Shown here: one piece after another, positions 19,692 to 31,948 of the stretch
Layout: every line of letters begins with the position of its first letter
Numbering within the stretch: position 1 is the stretch's first letter
DNA from: Fibrobacter succinogenes
GTDB lineage: Bacteria; Fibrobacterota; Fibrobacteria; Fibrobacterales; Fibrobacteraceae
DNA length: 64,000 nt
Assembly (NCBI RefSeq): GCF_902779965.1
Contig: NZ_CACZDK010000001.1
Coordinates: forward strand, 124,001-188,000
Direction of reading: 5' to 3'
Made by a program: the position numbers and the translations under genes
Notes under the pieces: generated by a model
Databases searched by the model: none
Seen by the model: the letters and a program-made list of their open reading frames with translations, nothing else
Told to the model about the DNA's origin: nothing

Positions 19692-20852
19692 ATGGCAAAT
19701 GAAATGGTTGTATTACAGGGTCAATCTTTCTCGATTGAACTGCAATCAATGCTTGGTTCCACTAATTATGGGTGGACTCTGACCAAACTTCCGCAGGGAA
19801 TCGCCCTGCTGAGTACAGAAACAGCTCCGTTGGCTGCAGGGGTTGCACCTGTTATCCAACGATTCTGGTTTGGTGCTGTTTCCGCAACGGAAGATAAGGC
19901 TGAACTTGAATTTACGTTGGTTAATTTGACGGATATGTCCGCTGCGAAAAAGACGCATACAGTGCTTCTGAATGTGATTCCAAGCGATTCCGAAGAATTT
20001 GCAAAATTTAGCGAAAACACTAACGCTTCAATCAGAGCTGTCGCCGGCCCTGCAATGCCCTATGGCCTTGTTCTCGGTTCGGCCGAAGCTGTTGTTAAGT
20101 ACGGTTATCCCTGCGGCGCAAATGAAACTGCTTTGATGAAGTACGGCTACCCTTGCGGTGTCAGTGATTTGCCTTTGATGAAGTACGGCTACCCTTGCGG
20201 TGTTAGTGATTTGCCTTTGATGAAGTACGGCTATCCTTGCGGTGTCAGTGATTTGCCTTTGATGAAGTATGGCTACCCTTGCGGCGCACAAGATGCAGCA
20301 TTAAATAGAGAAGCCGCAATGATCTATGGCTTCAAGAGCAGTGCAAATGAAGCTGCTTTGAAGTACGGCTATCCCTGCGGTGCGAATGACGCTGTTTTGA
20401 TGAAGTATGGCTATCCTTGCGGCGCACAAGATGCGGCTTCAAATAGAGAGGCTGCTATGATCTATGGCCTCAAGAGCAGTGCAAATGAAACTGCGTTGAT
20501 GAAATATGGTTATCCTTGTGGTGTGCAGGACGCAGCTGTGAAGTACGGTTATCCCTGTGGTGCTCAGGATGCGGCTTTGAATAGAGAAGTTGCTATGGCA
20601 TACGGTTTCAAGAGCTGTTCCAGTGAAGCTGCTTTGAAGTACGGTTATCCTTGCGGTGTTCAGGATGCTGCTTTGAAGTACGGTTATCCTTGCGGTGTTC
20701 AGGATGCTGCCTTGAAGTACGGTTATCCTTGCGGTGTTCAGGATGCTGCCTTGAAGTACGGCTATCCTTGCGGTGTTCAAGATGCTGCAACGAAAAAAGA
20801 TGCTGCAATAATCTATGGCTTCAAGTGTGATTCGCAGAAGTCTGACTGTTAA
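19692..20852 (+). CDS. KYGYPCG-repeat protein with chagasin-like N-terminal domain; candidate multi-core RiPP precursor
   Basis: A 386-residue protein without a signal peptide. Residues 1-100 look like a beta-sandwich of the chagasin/I42 protease-inhibitor type, with GSTNYGWTL in place of the family's NPTTGYxW loop and RFWFGAV further on. From residue 136 the heptapeptide KYGYPCG occurs 13 times without one change. It is separated by six- or seven-residue linkers (VSDLPLM, VQDAAL, ANETALM) or, four times, by a longer block with a variant motif YGFK/YGLK. Another YGLV precedes the series. Each perfect unit offers two Tyr, a Pro and a Cys. A radical SAM/SPASM gene follows after 71 bases, so the repeats are its likely substrates. 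The start has AGAGG at 19681-19685. A structural, metal-binding or secreted role is also possible. Confidence 0.8.
   Translation: MANEMVVLQGQSFSIELQSMLGSTNYGWTLTKLPQGIALLSTETAPLAAGVAPVIQRFWFGAVSATEDKAELEFTLVNLTDMSAAKKTHTVLLNVIPSDSEEFAKFSENTNASIRAVAGPAMPYGLVLGSAEAVVKYGYPCGANETALMKYGYPCGVSDLPLMKYGYPCGVSDLPLMKYGYPCGVSDLPLMKYGYPCGAQDAALNREAAMIYGFKSSANEAALKYGYPCGANDAVLMKYGYPCGAQDAASNREAAMIYGLKSSANETALMKYGYPCGVQDAAVKYGYPCGAQDAALNREVAMAYGFKSCSSEAALKYGYPCGVQDAALKYGYPCGVQDAALKYGYPCGVQDAALKYGYPCGVQDAATKKDAAIIYGFKCDSQKSDC
20097..20774 (+). repeat. Tandem coding repeats of 39/42 bp encoding KYGYPCG units
   Basis: Thirteen units lie in frame. Units 2-4 are 42-bp repeats and units 10-13 are 39-bp repeats, each group nearly identical at DNA level, so both arose by recent local duplication. 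Other units use different synonymous codons (GGT/GGC, TAT/TAC, CCC/CCT) while the heptapeptide stays fixed, which points to selection on the protein. Confidence 0.9.
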
Positions 20853-20873
20853 ATAAATCAGAATACATGATCA

Positions 20874-20910
20874 AAACAGCCTGCTGGCAATGGATGCTGG
20901 CCGGCTGTTT
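20874..20910 (+). promoter_or_regulatory. Intergenic hairpin between the repeat protein and radical SAM genes
   Basis: AAACAGCC (20874-20881) pairs with GGCTGTTT (20903-20910). The loop can form a further GGC/GCC stem. The Shine-Dalgarno GGAGG (20911-20915) of the next gene abuts the stem, then six T follow. It may cut read-through or shield the ribosome site, so that substrate is made in excess of the enzyme. Confidence 0.5.
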
Positions 20911-20923
20911 GGAGGTTTTTTAA

Positions 20924-22384
20924 ATGGCAAATATTGGGTATCAACCCGTCACTGCAGTCTGGGAAGTAACGATGGGCTGCAACTTTCGCTGTGGGCATTG
21001 TGGTTCATCTTGTGAGGGCGCTCTCCCGGGACAATTGAGCACCGAAGAAGCTCTTGATTTATGTGATCAGATTGCAGATATTGGATTGAAATGGATTACC
21101 TTGTCTGGAGGCGAACCTCTTACGAGACAAGATACACCTGAACTGGTGAAACGACTTTCCGGTAATGGCGTTATCGTGAATATGATCACGAACGGTTGGC
21201 TCCTTGACGCAAAGATGGCGAAAAAGTTAAAAGAAAATGGTATTGCCACTGTTGCGATAAGCATTGACGGAACGCCCGAAATCCATGACAAAATCAGGAA
21301 AAAAGGTGCCTTTGAACATGCAAGGCAGGCTTTTGCTGCAATGAAGGAATTGGGAATAAAGACCGGTGCTGTTACGACCATTACGAAGCAGAACATGGAT
21401 ATTCTCCCGGAATTGAAGGAAGAACTTATTCGCATGGGCGTTAACACGTGGCAGGTTCAACTCGGTTTGCCTATGGGTAATTTGAAGGAACGCCCTGATT
21501 GGCTCCTTGAACCGAGACAGGTCAAAGACATCATTGATTTTTGCTACGATACGGCAAAAGAAGGGCGAATTGATATTTATCCTGCCGATTGTATTGGATA
21601 TTATTCAATGAAGGACCTTGAAACAAGGCGTATGTCCTACAAGTCAAATGGTTATTCCTTGTGGGATGGCTGCAATGCTGGAATTCGCGGTTTCGGGATA
21701 TTGCATAATGGCGATATCTTGGGTTGCACCTCGATTCGATCCAAGGAATTCATTGAGGGAAATATCCGCGAAAGAAAGCTCCGTGAAATTTGGGAAGATA
21801 AAAATGCATTTTTGTGGCGTCGTCAGATGACAAAGGACAAACTTTCTGGCTCTTGCAAAAAATGCATTTATGGTTCCAAGTGCCTTGGCGGCTGCCCGAA
21901 TACGCGTCTCACGATGAAGGGTAGCATTTATGAGGAAAATGAATATTGCGCATACAACCTTTCTCTAAAGGAAAAGGAAACAAAGTATGGCAAGTGCGAC
22001 AGTGCTGCTGCTTTGCTCAAACTGGCAGAAGCGTTGATTCCGCAGGGCAACTATCAGGAAGCCTCCTTTGCCTTGAAGCGTGCACAAGAACTGGAACCCA
22101 ATAACGCCGATGTTTACAGGGCGATGGGTTACAGCGAATTCATGTGCGGTAACTATGAATCGTGCCTTGAAGCAAACGAAAAGGCTTTGAATATCAATAG
22201 CATGGATACTTATGCTATGGGTGGTCGAGCACTTGCCTTGTTTCGACTCGGGCAGACTGATGAAGGTTTGCGTGTTATGCAAGAGGCTGTCTCGTTGTCC
22301 GGAGGTCAGGATCCGAATCTTATCCAAGATCTCAGATATATGACATCCGACATGGCTGCAAAAGCTGCATACGCAAGTAAATAG
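20924..22384 (+). CDS. Radical SAM/SPASM protein with C-terminal TPR repeats
   Basis: A 486-residue protein. The radical SAM cluster motif is CNFRCGHC (Cys19, 23, 26), with SGGEP at residues 62-66. A SPASM region (about 250-345) has GCNAGIRGFGIL, GDILGCTS and CKKCIYGSKCLGGCPNTR, so two auxiliary Fe-S clusters are likely. Residues 360-460 form TPR-like helices (EALIPQGNYQEASFALKRAQ and EPNNADVYRAMGYSEF). SPASM enzymes of this type commonly install thioether or carbon-carbon crosslinks in ribosomal peptides. The TPR tail could hold the repetitive substrate. GGAGG lies eight bases before the ATG. No RRE, protease or transporter gene is adjacent. Whether it belongs to a named maturase family cannot be decided here. 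Confidence 0.9.
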   Translation: MANIGYQPVTAVWEVTMGCNFRCGHCGSSCEGALPGQLSTEEALDLCDQIADIGLKWITLSGGEPLTRQDTPELVKRLSGNGVIVNMITNGWLLDAKMAKKLKENGIATVAISIDGTPEIHDKIRKKGAFEHARQAFAAMKELGIKTGAVTTITKQNMDILPELKEELIRMGVNTWQVQLGLPMGNLKERPDWLLEPRQVKDIIDFCYDTAKEGRIDIYPADCIGYYSMKDLETRRMSYKSNGYSLWDGCNAGIRGFGILHNGDILGCTSIRSKEFIEGNIRERKLREIWEDKNAFLWRRQMTKDKLSGSCKKCIYGSKCLGGCPNTRLTMKGSIYEENEYCAYNLSLKEKETKYGKCDSAAALLKLAEALIPQGNYQEASFALKRAQELEPNNADVYRAMGYSEFMCGNYESCLEANEKALNINSMDTYAMGGRALALFRLGQTDEGLRVMQEAVSLSGGQDPNLIQDLRYMTSDMAAKAAYASK

Positions 22385-28238: not shown

Positions 28239-28392
28239 AAAATATCCTCAAGGATTAGTCTGTTCTAAAAAATAATGGAGGATATATATAAATTTATTTG
28301 GAATGTGTCAATTTTTTTTTGTTGTTGTTTGTAAAAAATAGTTTATTTTAGTGTTAGGTTTAGATGGCGTAAGCACTAAGAAAAAATGGCGT

Positions 28393-28838
28393 GAAAAAAG
28401 TGAAAGTACAATGAAATCTCTCGTTATTTATGTTCACGGGAAAGGCGGCAACGCCGACGAAGCGAATCACTACAAACCCCTTTTCCTGAACTGCGATGTC
28501 ATCGGTTTTGATTACAAGTCCGTAACTCCTTGGGACGCCAAAAAAGAATTCTCGTCTTACTTTGATTCCGTTTCTGCGGGCTATGACGAAGTTTTCTTGA
28601 TTGCAAATAGCATAGGGGCGTTCTTCTTGATGAACGTGCTTGGCGATAAACGTATCAAGCAAGCCTTCTTCATTTCGCCGATGGTCAACTTGGAAAAGCT
28701 GATTTGCGATATGATGGCATGTGCGGGCGTTTCGGAGGCTGAACTCCGCGAAAAGAAAACGATTGCGACATCTTTCGGTGAAACGCTTTCGTGGGAATAC
28801 CTTTGCTACGTGCGGGAAAATCCAATCCAGTGGAACAT
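28393..28838 (+). repeat. Duplicated segment, copy 1 (hydrolase 5' part)
   Basis: This segment matches 31322-31767 at high identity over about 446 bases. At 28839 the sequence jumps to one matching 32609 onward, so 841 bases present in copy 2 (31768-32608) are missing here. Confidence 0.85.
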
Positions 28839-28857
28839 TTTTACTTTCCTTTATTAA
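28411..28857 (+). pseudogene. Truncated alpha/beta hydrolase (broken copy)
   Basis: The 148-residue reading frame is nearly identical to the first 143 residues of the intact hydrolase at 31340-31948, including VIYVHGKGGNAD and the nucleophile region ANSIGAFF. After PIQWN it ends in FTFLY and stops, because a deletion fused it to the region upstream of the next gene. The Asp and His that complete the catalytic triad in the intact copy (GSKDN; GGEHWFH) are lost. An active product is unlikely. Confidence 0.8.
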
Positions 28858-28890
28858 ATCTATGAAAGGCTATGTTGCTATATTGCAAAC

Positions 28891-31254
28891 ATGGCTTATT
28901 ATAAATATTTTTTGCTGTTGCTTGCAGTTTCTTTTCTGCATCCTTGTGATGCGAAGCAAACGGAATCTGTTGTCGAATTATCTTCGGATGTAACACAAAG
29001 TTTTGAAGGCTTTGTTCGCGATACAAGCGCGTATGTCATGGTTGTGGATTCGAACGTTCACGATAGTGCCTTTAAAGAGACTCTAGTCCCTGTGGAAAAT
29101 GGCGGCTTTGTAGAGTATTTTTCCAGATATCCGTATAAAAAAGAGACAAATAGAAATAAAATTTTCTTCGCCTATTCTGATTCCTTAAGCCCTTTTGTAA
29201 AAAGCCGTTCCGAAACATTTTCGTTCCTTGATGTTCTTACGTTTGCGTATGTCAATCGTTATCCAATGGAGATTTGCCCTGATGATATTTGGCTTATGAT
29301 ATTAGATGGCTTTCGCCTTCATGTAAAGAATAATCACAAAGCTTTGAAAAAAGTTTTTTTTGCCCCGGGTGCAGATTCTGTAATCTCAGTTCGTGATAAA
29401 TCTTTGACGTATGAATCTACGCATCGGGAATGGTTTTGGACATTTGCAAATTTGTTTGAATCATTGCAGTCTAAATTGCCTTCAAAAACGGGGAATCCGC
29501 TAAAAACGAGGTTCTCGACAACGAGTCCGATAGATTACAATATTTCTCTGTCTATGGGAATGGCTGAACCTTCGCATTTCTATCCATATATCGATTGGAC
29601 TACTTTTGGAATCCCCAAAATCAAGGTTAACGGAACTAAAGAGGATTGGATTCTGCTTAAGGAATCCTTTAACAAGTTGGCTTTGCAGTTGAATATGAAG
29701 TGGTGGGCAAAAGTCCTTAATCCAATTCTTGATGAATTTATCAAGATTTTTGACGGTAAAATAAATTTAGAACATTGGAAAGAAATTTACAAATATTATA
29801 AACGAGATGGGTGCTGTAGTACTCGCTTTGGCGGGTGGATTTCTAGGTTTTTCCCTTATAGGGACCGACTGATTCGCGATGGAAATGTACGCTCTGTAAA
29901 GCGTACGAATTGGAATGAAAGTATTAACTTTGATGACATTTCGCAGGGAATCTCGGTTGTCGATGTAGCTTGGCATTACTTAGATAGAACGATTCCTTTA
30001 AAGCTCTATACTGGTATTGTAGGAATCCAAGTCGATAACACGACTAAAATGTTGAAAGCGGCTAGAGGGTATGCTCTGATGTCCTATGGATTGCTGAATT
30101 TTAAGGAAATTGCTAAGGGAACGAAATATATTCCAGGAAAGACTCAACGCTTGCATGAAACTTTAGCGATTTCGGACTCTATGAATATTTATGGTGATAA
30201 AGGCTTGCTTTATTCAACCCATGACCTTGAAGAAATTGAACGCTTTGCGGAAATGTCTTATTTAGATAGGGAATATCTTGATTTTGATCTTGATTATGAT
30301 AGTTGGGAATCTAAAATGAAGTTCGATTTTGGTAAACCAAATTTGGCGATTAATTTGTATCGAAATGGAGAGCTGCAAGACCATTTGTTTTATTATGCCC
30401 ATCCTCAAATAGATGGTGATGGAGCAATGGTTTCGTTCAAAGGGGTTGGGTATTGGGAAAAAAATGCTGCCATCAAAAAGTTTTTTAAACAACGGAAAAT
30501 TCCTATAAACGGAACAGTTAATGAATTTCCAAATGAAAAGACTCTCCCTAAATTCAATCTGGAAATATTTATCGATACGGTTATTTTAAAAGAAGGGAAA
30601 AAGTTTAATAAAAACATGGATAATCTTAGATTGGGGATAATTGGGACTTTGAAAAAATCATGTGGCTGGCGGATTGAAAGAGCTATATATCGTCATCATA
30701 AATATGATTTTAATGATTCTATTGTGGCTACAATTTCGTATAAGGATGAAGGACGCGTTGATTCTGTTTCTATGAATTTAAAACCTGAAATTAGTTCTTT
30801 TCAAGAAGAAATTCGTTCTATCTTGAAATATGCGTGGATGCCTCCAAATGTTCGCTTCGTTGTAGGTAGTGAAATTGCACAAGAAATTGTTGATAAGATC
30901 AAAGTCCGAATAACATTATCTAAAGATTATCGAATGGTATGCAAACAGAATGGGCTTATTTCAAAGGATTCTGTTGATGTGATTTCGAGGGCTTGGCATT
31001 TAAGTAAAGGAAAAGCCAAATCTCTTTGTAACGCAATTGATTTTTCGAAAGACCTTGCTACTGGTGAAATTTATCGCTATCAGTGTGAAAAGTTCGATGA
31101 AAAGGATGAAAAATTAAAATCGTCCAAAAATATTCAAGGTTTTGCAATTTTTAGTTTCGATAAATATAGCGGCTACGATCGTGAAATGTCGAAGAGAACT
31201 CTGAAAGACCTGTTCGTCTCTCTTAAAATTCCACCCTGCTTTGTGGAGGAATAA
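28891..31254 (+). CDS. Exported DUF4419 protein, long form
   Basis: A 787-residue protein with an N-terminal signal (MAYYKYFLLLLAVSFLHPCD) in which Cys could be lipidated, though the lipobox is poor. Residues about 30-390 match the DUF4419 family. Characteristic words are NRYPMEICPDDIWLMILDGF, RFSTTSPIDYNIS, FGIPKIKVNGTKEDWILL and GGWISRFFPY. The biochemical function of that family is not known to me. The C-terminal 390 residues are absent from the shorter paralogue at 32661-33878 and show no family I recognise. The start follows TATATTGCAAAC, with no Shine-Dalgarno. It is probably transcribed independently of the broken hydrolase. Confidence 0.75.
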   Translation: MAYYKYFLLLLAVSFLHPCDAKQTESVVELSSDVTQSFEGFVRDTSAYVMVVDSNVHDSAFKETLVPVENGGFVEYFSRYPYKKETNRNKIFFAYSDSLSPFVKSRSETFSFLDVLTFAYVNRYPMEICPDDIWLMILDGFRLHVKNNHKALKKVFFAPGADSVISVRDKSLTYESTHREWFWTFANLFESLQSKLPSKTGNPLKTRFSTTSPIDYNISLSMGMAEPSHFYPYIDWTTFGIPKIKVNGTKEDWILLKESFNKLALQLNMKWWAKVLNPILDEFIKIFDGKINLEHWKEIYKYYKRDGCCSTRFGGWISRFFPYRDRLIRDGNVRSVKRTNWNESINFDDISQGISVVDVAWHYLDRTIPLKLYTGIVGIQVDNTTKMLKAARGYALMSYGLLNFKEIAKGTKYIPGKTQRLHETLAISDSMNIYGDKGLLYSTHDLEEIERFAEMSYLDREYLDFDLDYDSWESKMKFDFGKPNLAINLYRNGELQDHLFYYAHPQIDGDGAMVSFKGVGYWEKNAAIKKFFKQRKIPINGTVNEFPNEKTLPKFNLEIFIDTVILKEGKKFNKNMDNLRLGIIGTLKKSCGWRIERAIYRHHKYDFNDSIVATISYKDEGRVDSVSMNLKPEISSFQEEIRSILKYAWMPPNVRFVVGSEIAQEIVDKIKVRITLSKDYRMVCKQNGLISKDSVDVISRAWHLSKGKAKSLCNAIDFSKDLATGEIYRYQCEKFDEKDEKLKSSKNIQGFAIFSFDKYSGYDREMSKRTLKDLFVSLKIPPCFVEE

Positions 31255-31321
31255 AAGCGTAATTGCTGATATGTGATCACTGTTGCCATGCCTGCATAAA
31301 TATTGTTATATTGCATGTTGC

Positions 31322-31767
31322 GAAAAAAGTGAAAGTACAATGAAATCTCTCGTTATTTATGTTCACGGGAAAGGCGGCAACGCCGACGAAGCGAATCACT
31401 ACAAACCCCTTTTCCCAAATGGCGACATCATAGGTTTTGATTACAAGTCCGAAACTCCTTGGGACGCCAAAAAAGAATTCTCGTCTTACTTTGATTCCGT
31501 TTCTGCGGGCTATGACGAAGTTTTTTTGATTGCAAATAGCATAGGGGCGTTCTTCTCGATGAACGCGCTCGCTGATAAGCGAATCAAGAACGCTTATTTC
31601 ATTTCGCCGATGGTCAACTTGGAAAAGCTCATTAGCGACATGATGATGTGGGCGGGCGTTTCGGAGGCGGAACTCCGCGAAAAGAAAACGATTGCGACCG
31701 CTTTTGGCGAAACGCTTTCGTGGGAATACCTTTGCTATGTGCGGGAAAATCCGATCCAGTGGAACAT
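31322..31767 (+). repeat. Duplicated segment, copy 2 (hydrolase 5' part)
   Basis: This is the partner of 28393-28838. It sits in the intact hydrolase gene. Confidence 0.85.
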
Positions 31768-31948
31768 CCCGACGCAGATTCTGTACGGTTCGAAGGACAA
31801 CTTGACTTCCATCGAGACGATGGGCGAGTTCGCCAAGAGAATTGGCGCTCCGCTCACTGTAATGGAGGGTGGCGAACACTGGTTCCATACGGACGAACAG
31901 ATGCAATTTTTAGACAGGTGGATTGAAAAATGTCAGAACAAACATTAA
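31340..31948 (+). CDS. Small alpha/beta hydrolase (intact copy)
   Basis: A 202-residue cytosolic hydrolase. LVIYVHGKGGNADE forms the oxyanion turn. The nucleophile is Ser in IANSIGAFF. QILYGSKDNLTS supplies the Asp and GGEHWFHTDEQ the His, so the triad is complete. It resembles the small serine hydrolases of the YdeN/RBBP9 type, where the nucleophile motif departs from GxSxG. The substrate is unknown. Its end overlaps the start of the M41-like gene by 19 bases, suggesting translational coupling. The ATG at 31340 is chosen because the broken copy shares homology from just before it. Confidence 0.8.
   Translation: MKSLVIYVHGKGGNADEANHYKPLFPNGDIIGFDYKSETPWDAKKEFSSYFDSVSAGYDEVFLIANSIGAFFSMNALADKRIKNAYFISPMVNLEKLISDMMMWAGVSEAELREKKTIATAFGETLSWEYLCYVRENPIQWNIPTQILYGSKDNLTSIETMGEFAKRIGAPLTVMEGGEHWFHTDEQMQFLDRWIEKCQNKH

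Follow-up and report, generated by a model that had tools for sequence, protein, structure and literature searches.

The window, i.e., the whole stretch of 64,000 nucleotides of Fibrobacter succinogenes DNA analysed here, contains two adjacent genes encoding a repeat protein and a radical SAM/SPASM enzyme. Judged by its motifs and relatives, the enzyme very probably belongs to the splicease type and would excise part of a tyrosine from the peptide backbone at Tyr-Gly sites, so that 13, perhaps 18, sites of one protein may be spliced. The anatomy of the two proteins, their obligate pairing, the conserved Tyr-Gly, an I42-type fold and the kinship to family TIGR04103 are the observations behind this reading, and from them we infer the reaction, the number of sites used and the target of the product. 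The features of the locus are as follows:

19692..20852, plus strand: predicted substrate, 386-aa ORF with a chagasin-like domain and an X-Tyr-Gly (XYG) repeat tail
19692..20021, plus strand: chagasin/inhibitor I42-like Ig-type domain, about residues 1-110 (Pfam PF09394 and AF2 model)
20058..20849, plus strand: predicted splice-site tail with 18 X-Tyr-Gly (13 KYGYPCG plus PYG, three IYG and AYG)
20874..20922, plus strand: strong hairpin with U-run in the intergenic gap, directly 5' of the enzyme start (z -3.4 against shuffles)
20924..22384, plus strand: radical SAM/SPASM enzyme, predicted splicease, 486 aa
20978..21001, plus strand: CNFRCGHC radical SAM cluster motif (sequence, alignment)
21671..21949, plus strand: SPASM domain with seven conserved Cys (profile match, alignment)
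22001..22303, plus strand: C-terminal TPR tail (profile match)

The repeat protein and its N-terminal domain

A recount agreed with the first-pass annotation that the 386-aa protein carries 13 exact copies of KYGYPCG. These are encoded by nine DNA versions, which differ at third codon positions only and with all seven codons affected, indicating that the peptide is held by selection and is not merely the result of recent DNA duplication. Five additional Tyr-Gly sites occur in the tail outside of KYGYPCG (PYGLVL, IYGFKS, IYGLKS, AYGFKS and IYGFKC). The Tyr-Gly of the N-terminal domain (GSTNYGW) was left out of the count of splice sites, as it is lost in relatives (GYAW, GFGW, CWGW, NVGW), in contrast to the sites in the tail, which are kept. 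The repeat protein was the only YG-rich ORF among the 246 ORFs of at least 60 codons in the window (the other 245 were negative); none was found among the other 571 ORFs of ten Fibrobacter-family loci or next to five further radical SAM genes in this genome. Within the repeat tail, Pfam matched XylR_N and OTU1_UBXL; these matches were dismissed as they were short, confined to the tail, and no stretch was significant on its own.

The first ~110 residues have a chagasin-type (I42) cysteine-protease-inhibitor fold according to an AlphaFold (AF2) model built from 23 sequences (pLDDT 85). The best PDB match of this model was EhICP2 (3m88), an amoebic I42-type inhibitor, and PbICP and chagasin (2nnr, 2h7w) were also among the matches. 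At the sequence level, the relatives L105, L102 and L104 score above the PF09394 threshold (E-values of 8e-13, 4e-9 and 2e-8), and the window domain scores below it (18.4 bits against a gathering score of 27.2; E-value 0.0027). A search with the same model found no second I42 domain in the genome, and no signal peptide was apparent in the window protein. Chagasin inhibits by three canonical loops, NPTTG, GxGG and RPW. These are largely lost in the Fibrobacter domain, where GSTNYGW occupies the position of the NPTTG loop, and the I42 domain may therefore be a recognition domain only. Unlike the known I42 inhibitors, the Fibrobacter domain is fused to the tail of predicted splice sites.

The enzyme scores best with TIGR04103

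The enzyme is complete, with the CX3CX2C motif, the full set of SPASM cysteines (C250, C268, C311, C314, C320, C324 and C342) and TPRs at about residues 360-460, in line with the first-pass description of a radical SAM/SPASM enzyme with a TPR-like tail next to the repeat gene. The best curated family was TIGR04103, at 227.6 bits against a cut-off of 725, so that the enzyme is not filed as a member; second came TIGR03913 with 201 bits against a cut-off of 592. The same two families lead in the same order for the Butyrivibrio, Agathobacter, NHLP- and GG-associated relatives tested. We take TIGR04103 to be identical to IPR026482, the SPASM subclass of PlpX; PlpX itself lies outside the compared sequences. 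A genuine TIGR04103 member from a Nostoc plasmid scored 853 bits against the cut-off of 725, and its gene is located directly 3' of a Nif11 precursor with the C-terminal end ALYGLPPELF. The window enzyme shares only ~30-34% identity with this protein, and the residues common to the aligned set comprise VWE, CN..C.HCGS, GYY, W.GC.AG and the SPASM Cys. In a tree, 35 window-type and TIGR04103/03913-type enzymes split from eight other SPASM enzymes, with comparators including NirJ, PqqE, MftC, TIGR04053 and TIGR04347, on a branch whose values of 96/79 fall short of firm support. Among plasmid genes, the nearest kin of the Nostoc enzyme outside the TIGR03913 group was the Agathobacter enzyme (210 bits), and its other matches, PqqE and MftC included, reached 105 bits or less. 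The best TIGR04103 score within the phylum belongs to another Fibrobacterota enzyme (G149, L053/L064), beside which no XYG precursor was recognisable on its 3.8-kb contig.

TIGR03913 (rad_SAM_trio, GDL motif) is similar in that its enzymes follow DUF1843 peptides, most of which contain XYG (LYG, PYG) near the N-terminus (L068:1992-2752, L066:5702-5872), suggesting that the 'GDL motif' system is a splicease system, too; one DUF1843 paralogue (L068:2558-2752) has YMAT in place of YG. In contrast to the Fibrobacter substrate, these precursors are short, have a single site and occur as multiple small paralogues. On a Tropicibacter plasmid (L155:2174-4982), a radical SAM gene near TIGR04103 overlaps a gene for a trypsin-like peptidase, and genes for an M23 peptidase and for another radical SAM protein lie next to them.

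Two other families were considered and rejected. The first-pass annotation had left open whether the enzyme belongs to FibroRumin (TIGR04136), a family which, judging by its name, occurs in the same kinds of bacteria; a profile search returned five weak matches elsewhere in the genome and none at the enzyme gene. The rSAM_ACGX system likewise places a SPASM enzyme (TIGR04340) beside a Cys-Gly repeat protein (ACGX-repeat peptide, TIGR04341), but both window proteins are far below the cut-offs (115 bits against 400 for the enzyme and 10.6 against 28 for the repeat protein).

The two genes form an obligate pair

Among 111 Fibrobacter-family genomes, the enzyme was present in ten and the repeat protein in the same ten. 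The two were thus never apart, the test that had been proposed for the first-pass idea of a dedicated radical SAM/SPASM enzyme with its repetitive substrate, an idea that the obligate pairing supports. An eleventh, weak match in another genus of the family (G001, L052) lacks both motif repeats and enzyme and was taken as chance. In the closest kin of the window, the pair lies between purL and various genes, and it occurs also at three or more unrelated genomic places. No third gene was common to the different contexts, so that the system appears to consist of two genes; likewise no RRE, protease or transporter gene, the absence of which nearby had been remarked upon in the first-pass annotation, was common to them. 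Neither protein gave a PqqD match indicative of an RRE, and the genome's single PqqD gene lies on a different contig. The gap of 71 bp between the two genes is too short for a PlpY-type partner gene. As Pfam also misses the small gene following the Nostoc splicease, a partner of this type elsewhere in the genome would be missed by the search. The terminator-like hairpin in the gap may limit the enzyme relative to the substrate, resulting in a high substrate-to-enzyme ratio.

Butyrivibrio enzymes are 82% identical to the window enzyme, and the Fibrobacter enzymes are nested among those of Lachnospiraceae, which makes lateral acquisition of the cassette in the rumen probable. At 28351-31948 the window contains near-duplicate ORFs at 28351 and 31283 with the shared start MKSLVIYVHGKGGNADEANHYKPLF and a DUF4419 protein between them, a gene set that is also close to the cassette in sister genomes.

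Tyr-Gly is the conserved core

Scanning GTDB genomes with the enzyme yielded 80 related loci in Lachnospiraceae, other Clostridia, Spirochaetota, Bacteroidota, a deltaproteobacterium and a Thiodiazotropha. By inspection, a protein or peptide with XYG is encoded next to or near the enzyme in ~70 of the 80. The search of other genomes proposed in the first-pass annotation thus did find repeat proteins beside similar enzymes, though KYGYPC itself varies. No XYG precursor was within reach in ~10 loci (L083, L113, L114, L129, L130, L135, L136, L138, L140 and L141), some of which are contig ends. The precursors span five unrelated architectures: I42-type repeat proteins account for 30, and the others include GG-leader peptides with [KL]YG[IV] repeats, NHLP-leader peptides with a single AYGV-type site and, as identified by Pfam, dockerin proteins (L097, L137) and SLH proteins (L099, L100). 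The dockerin protein of L097 has a signal-like start and PPYGFP/PEYGFP repeats, and both the dockerin and the SLH relatives resemble surface proteins.

Two side observations concern these loci. The dockerin or S-layer-homology proteins with XYG tails (L097:5397-6002, L099:5195-5986, L100:5026-5976 and L137:807-1382), which adjoin enzymes of this type in Defluviitaleaceae, Oscillospiraceae and Spirochaetales, are predicted to be spliced proteins bound to the surface or the cellulosome. Enzymes without TPRs (~346-402 aa; L127, L128, L132, L133, L139, L145, L146, L065) adjoin precursors with a single XYG; most TPR-tailed enzymes have multi-site substrates, and the NHLP-type loci L121, L122, L124 and L143 combine TPRs with one site.

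That the heptapeptide occurs 'without a single change', as stated in the first-pass annotation, applies to the window copy only: sister Fibrobacter copies frequently have another residue for the Cys (KYGYPV, KYGYPN, KYGYPD, KYGFPR, as in G087), and variation also affects Pro and the second Tyr. Across 315 sites in 31 I42 proteins, the window protein included, YG is preceded by K in 68%, then by P, A, I, M and D, and followed by Y in 67% and F in 13%, then by L, V and I; Cys is at +4 in 58%. KYGYPC was exact 137 times, and the 61 single-substitution variants were distributed over the six positions as K 6, Y 0, G 0, Y 4, P 22 and C 29. The chance of none among 61 falling on the first Tyr or the Gly under an even spread is ~2 in 10^11, a figure that serves as a guide only as the copies are related. 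Thus, Tyr-Gly is the conserved core and the Cys is dispensable.

Other reactions were weighed against this pattern. The first-pass annotation had favoured crosslinks, either thioether or aromatic, within a fixed Tyr/Pro/Cys core, an expectation at odds with a core of which only Tyr-Gly is kept and with whole relatives devoid of YGYPC. A maturase forming a thioether ring from Cys to a backbone or beta carbon in each KYGYPCG, as in sactipeptides and ranthipeptides, would agree with the SPASM enzyme, the Cys in 13 of 13 window cores and the frequent Cys at +4. However, a core Cys at every site, the mark of those peptides, was not found: 29 single substitutions hit the Cys, seven I42 relatives are without YGYPC or nearly so (L074, L094, L096, L102, L104 and L105 have none at all), and the core lacks Cys in 29 of 43 other precursors. 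As the enzyme additionally reaches 75 bits with PapB compared to 228 with TIGR04103, thioether formation appears extremely improbable.

A crosslink between carbons, either a three-residue cyclophane (Tyr-Gly-aromatic) or a Lys-aromatic bond (Lys-Tyr, WgK/streptide-type), would explain the hydrophobic residue following YG at most sites, the predominance of Lys before it and a certain similarity of the enzyme to WgkB. Yet the residue after YG may be Gly (L132, L139), Thr (L065, L146) or Ala, the Lys position may hold P, A, L, M, I, D or E instead, and the Gly, for which we know of no need in these reactions, is never altered, which leaves such crosslinks very improbable. An undescribed chemistry directed at Tyr-Gly, e.g., cleavage or excision of the Tyr side chain by an enzyme distantly related to PlpX, would be consistent with a TPR clade separate from TIGR04103 and far under its cut-off. 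It is nevertheless very improbable, as the motif, the precursor-enzyme order and the NHLP-leader precursors with a single YG all match spliceotides.

Comparison with PlpX and the predicted product

Splicing remains the preferred reading. PlpX, the founding splicease, of SPASM subclass IPR026482, works together with the RRE protein PlpY and excises tyramine from Xaa-Tyr-Gly, leaving an alpha-keto amide (PMC11002830); its natural sites are MYG and LYG, and PLYGLPI or PGYGLPI, i.e., P[LG]YGLPI, have been used as tags (PMC10533398). The window pair shares two features with splicease systems, CX3CX2C and SPASM Cys in the enzyme and an adjacent precursor with conserved Tyr-Gly. As in the PlpX/PlpY system of Pleurocapsa, there are relatives with NHLP/Nif11-type leaders, and a hydrophobic residue comes after YG, with Pro often next. 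In contrast to PlpX/PlpY, no PlpY/RRE partner was seen in the Fibrobacter system, the enzyme has a TPR tail, the substrate has a folded I42 domain in place of a leader, and there are 13-18 sites per 386-aa protein with Lys as the usual X.

In the proposed mechanism, the enzyme would bind its substrate by way of the TPR tail and/or the I42 domain. The tail probably grips the long substrate, a role already proposed in the first-pass annotation and considered plausible here; the I42 domain may act as recognition module, inhibitor scaffold, or both. The enzyme would cleave SAM to generate a radical, and each XYG would lose C8H9NO (135.07 Da) in the absence of an RRE partner, yielding an alpha-keto-beta-amino acid with a predicted mass change of -135 and not -2 per site. 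The Lys would thereby become a keto-homologue joined straight to Gly-Tyr-Pro-Cys.

The product would be a polyvalent ketoamide inhibitor of proteases cutting after Lys, for which the chagasin-type fold speaks. Trypsin-like proteases are inhibited by ketoamides that have a basic residue preceding the keto group, e.g., cyclotheonamide with its Arg-type residue. Also spliceotides are reported as protease inhibitors in a review and a paper citing Scott 2022 (PMC10373908, PMC11117315), which, in combination with the inhibitor-type domain, speaks for a polyvalent protease inhibitor. Against an extracellular inhibitor role stands the window protein's lack of an apparent signal peptide. This role is less certain than the splicing itself, and we give it about an even chance. 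More tentatively, chagasin-fold inhibitors may present many keto-lysine warheads to Lys-specific rumen proteases after splicing of their tails in up to 18 positions by a TPR splicease without an RRE, with sister systems arming S-layer and cellulosome (dockerin) proteins, a scenario that we regard as somewhat doubtful.

Tyramine excision as such is known and, as cited in PMC10373908 and PMC11117315, is said to be widespread, with the title of Scott et al. 2022 naming 'peptides and proteins'; the layout at protein scale is unusual. The clade that combines a TPR tail and the lack of an RRE with I42 repeat substrates of about 4-18 sites constitutes a distinct variant; the literature searched, a set without Scott et al. 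2022 (Chem, doi 10.1016/j.chempr.2022.09.017), gave no account of it. The same literature contained neither the YGYPCG motif nor the word FibroRumin nor a combination of chagasin with radical SAM. The enzymes seem to be RRE-independent and to accept Lys, Leu, Pro, Ala, Met or an acidic residue ahead of Tyr-Gly, and would therefore suit as tools for placing ketoamides into proteins. If the reading is correct, tyramine excision would extend beyond the making of small peptides and rebuild the backbones of whole proteins at many points, in gut and rumen anaerobes and on inhibitor-type domains, S-layer and dockerin proteins.
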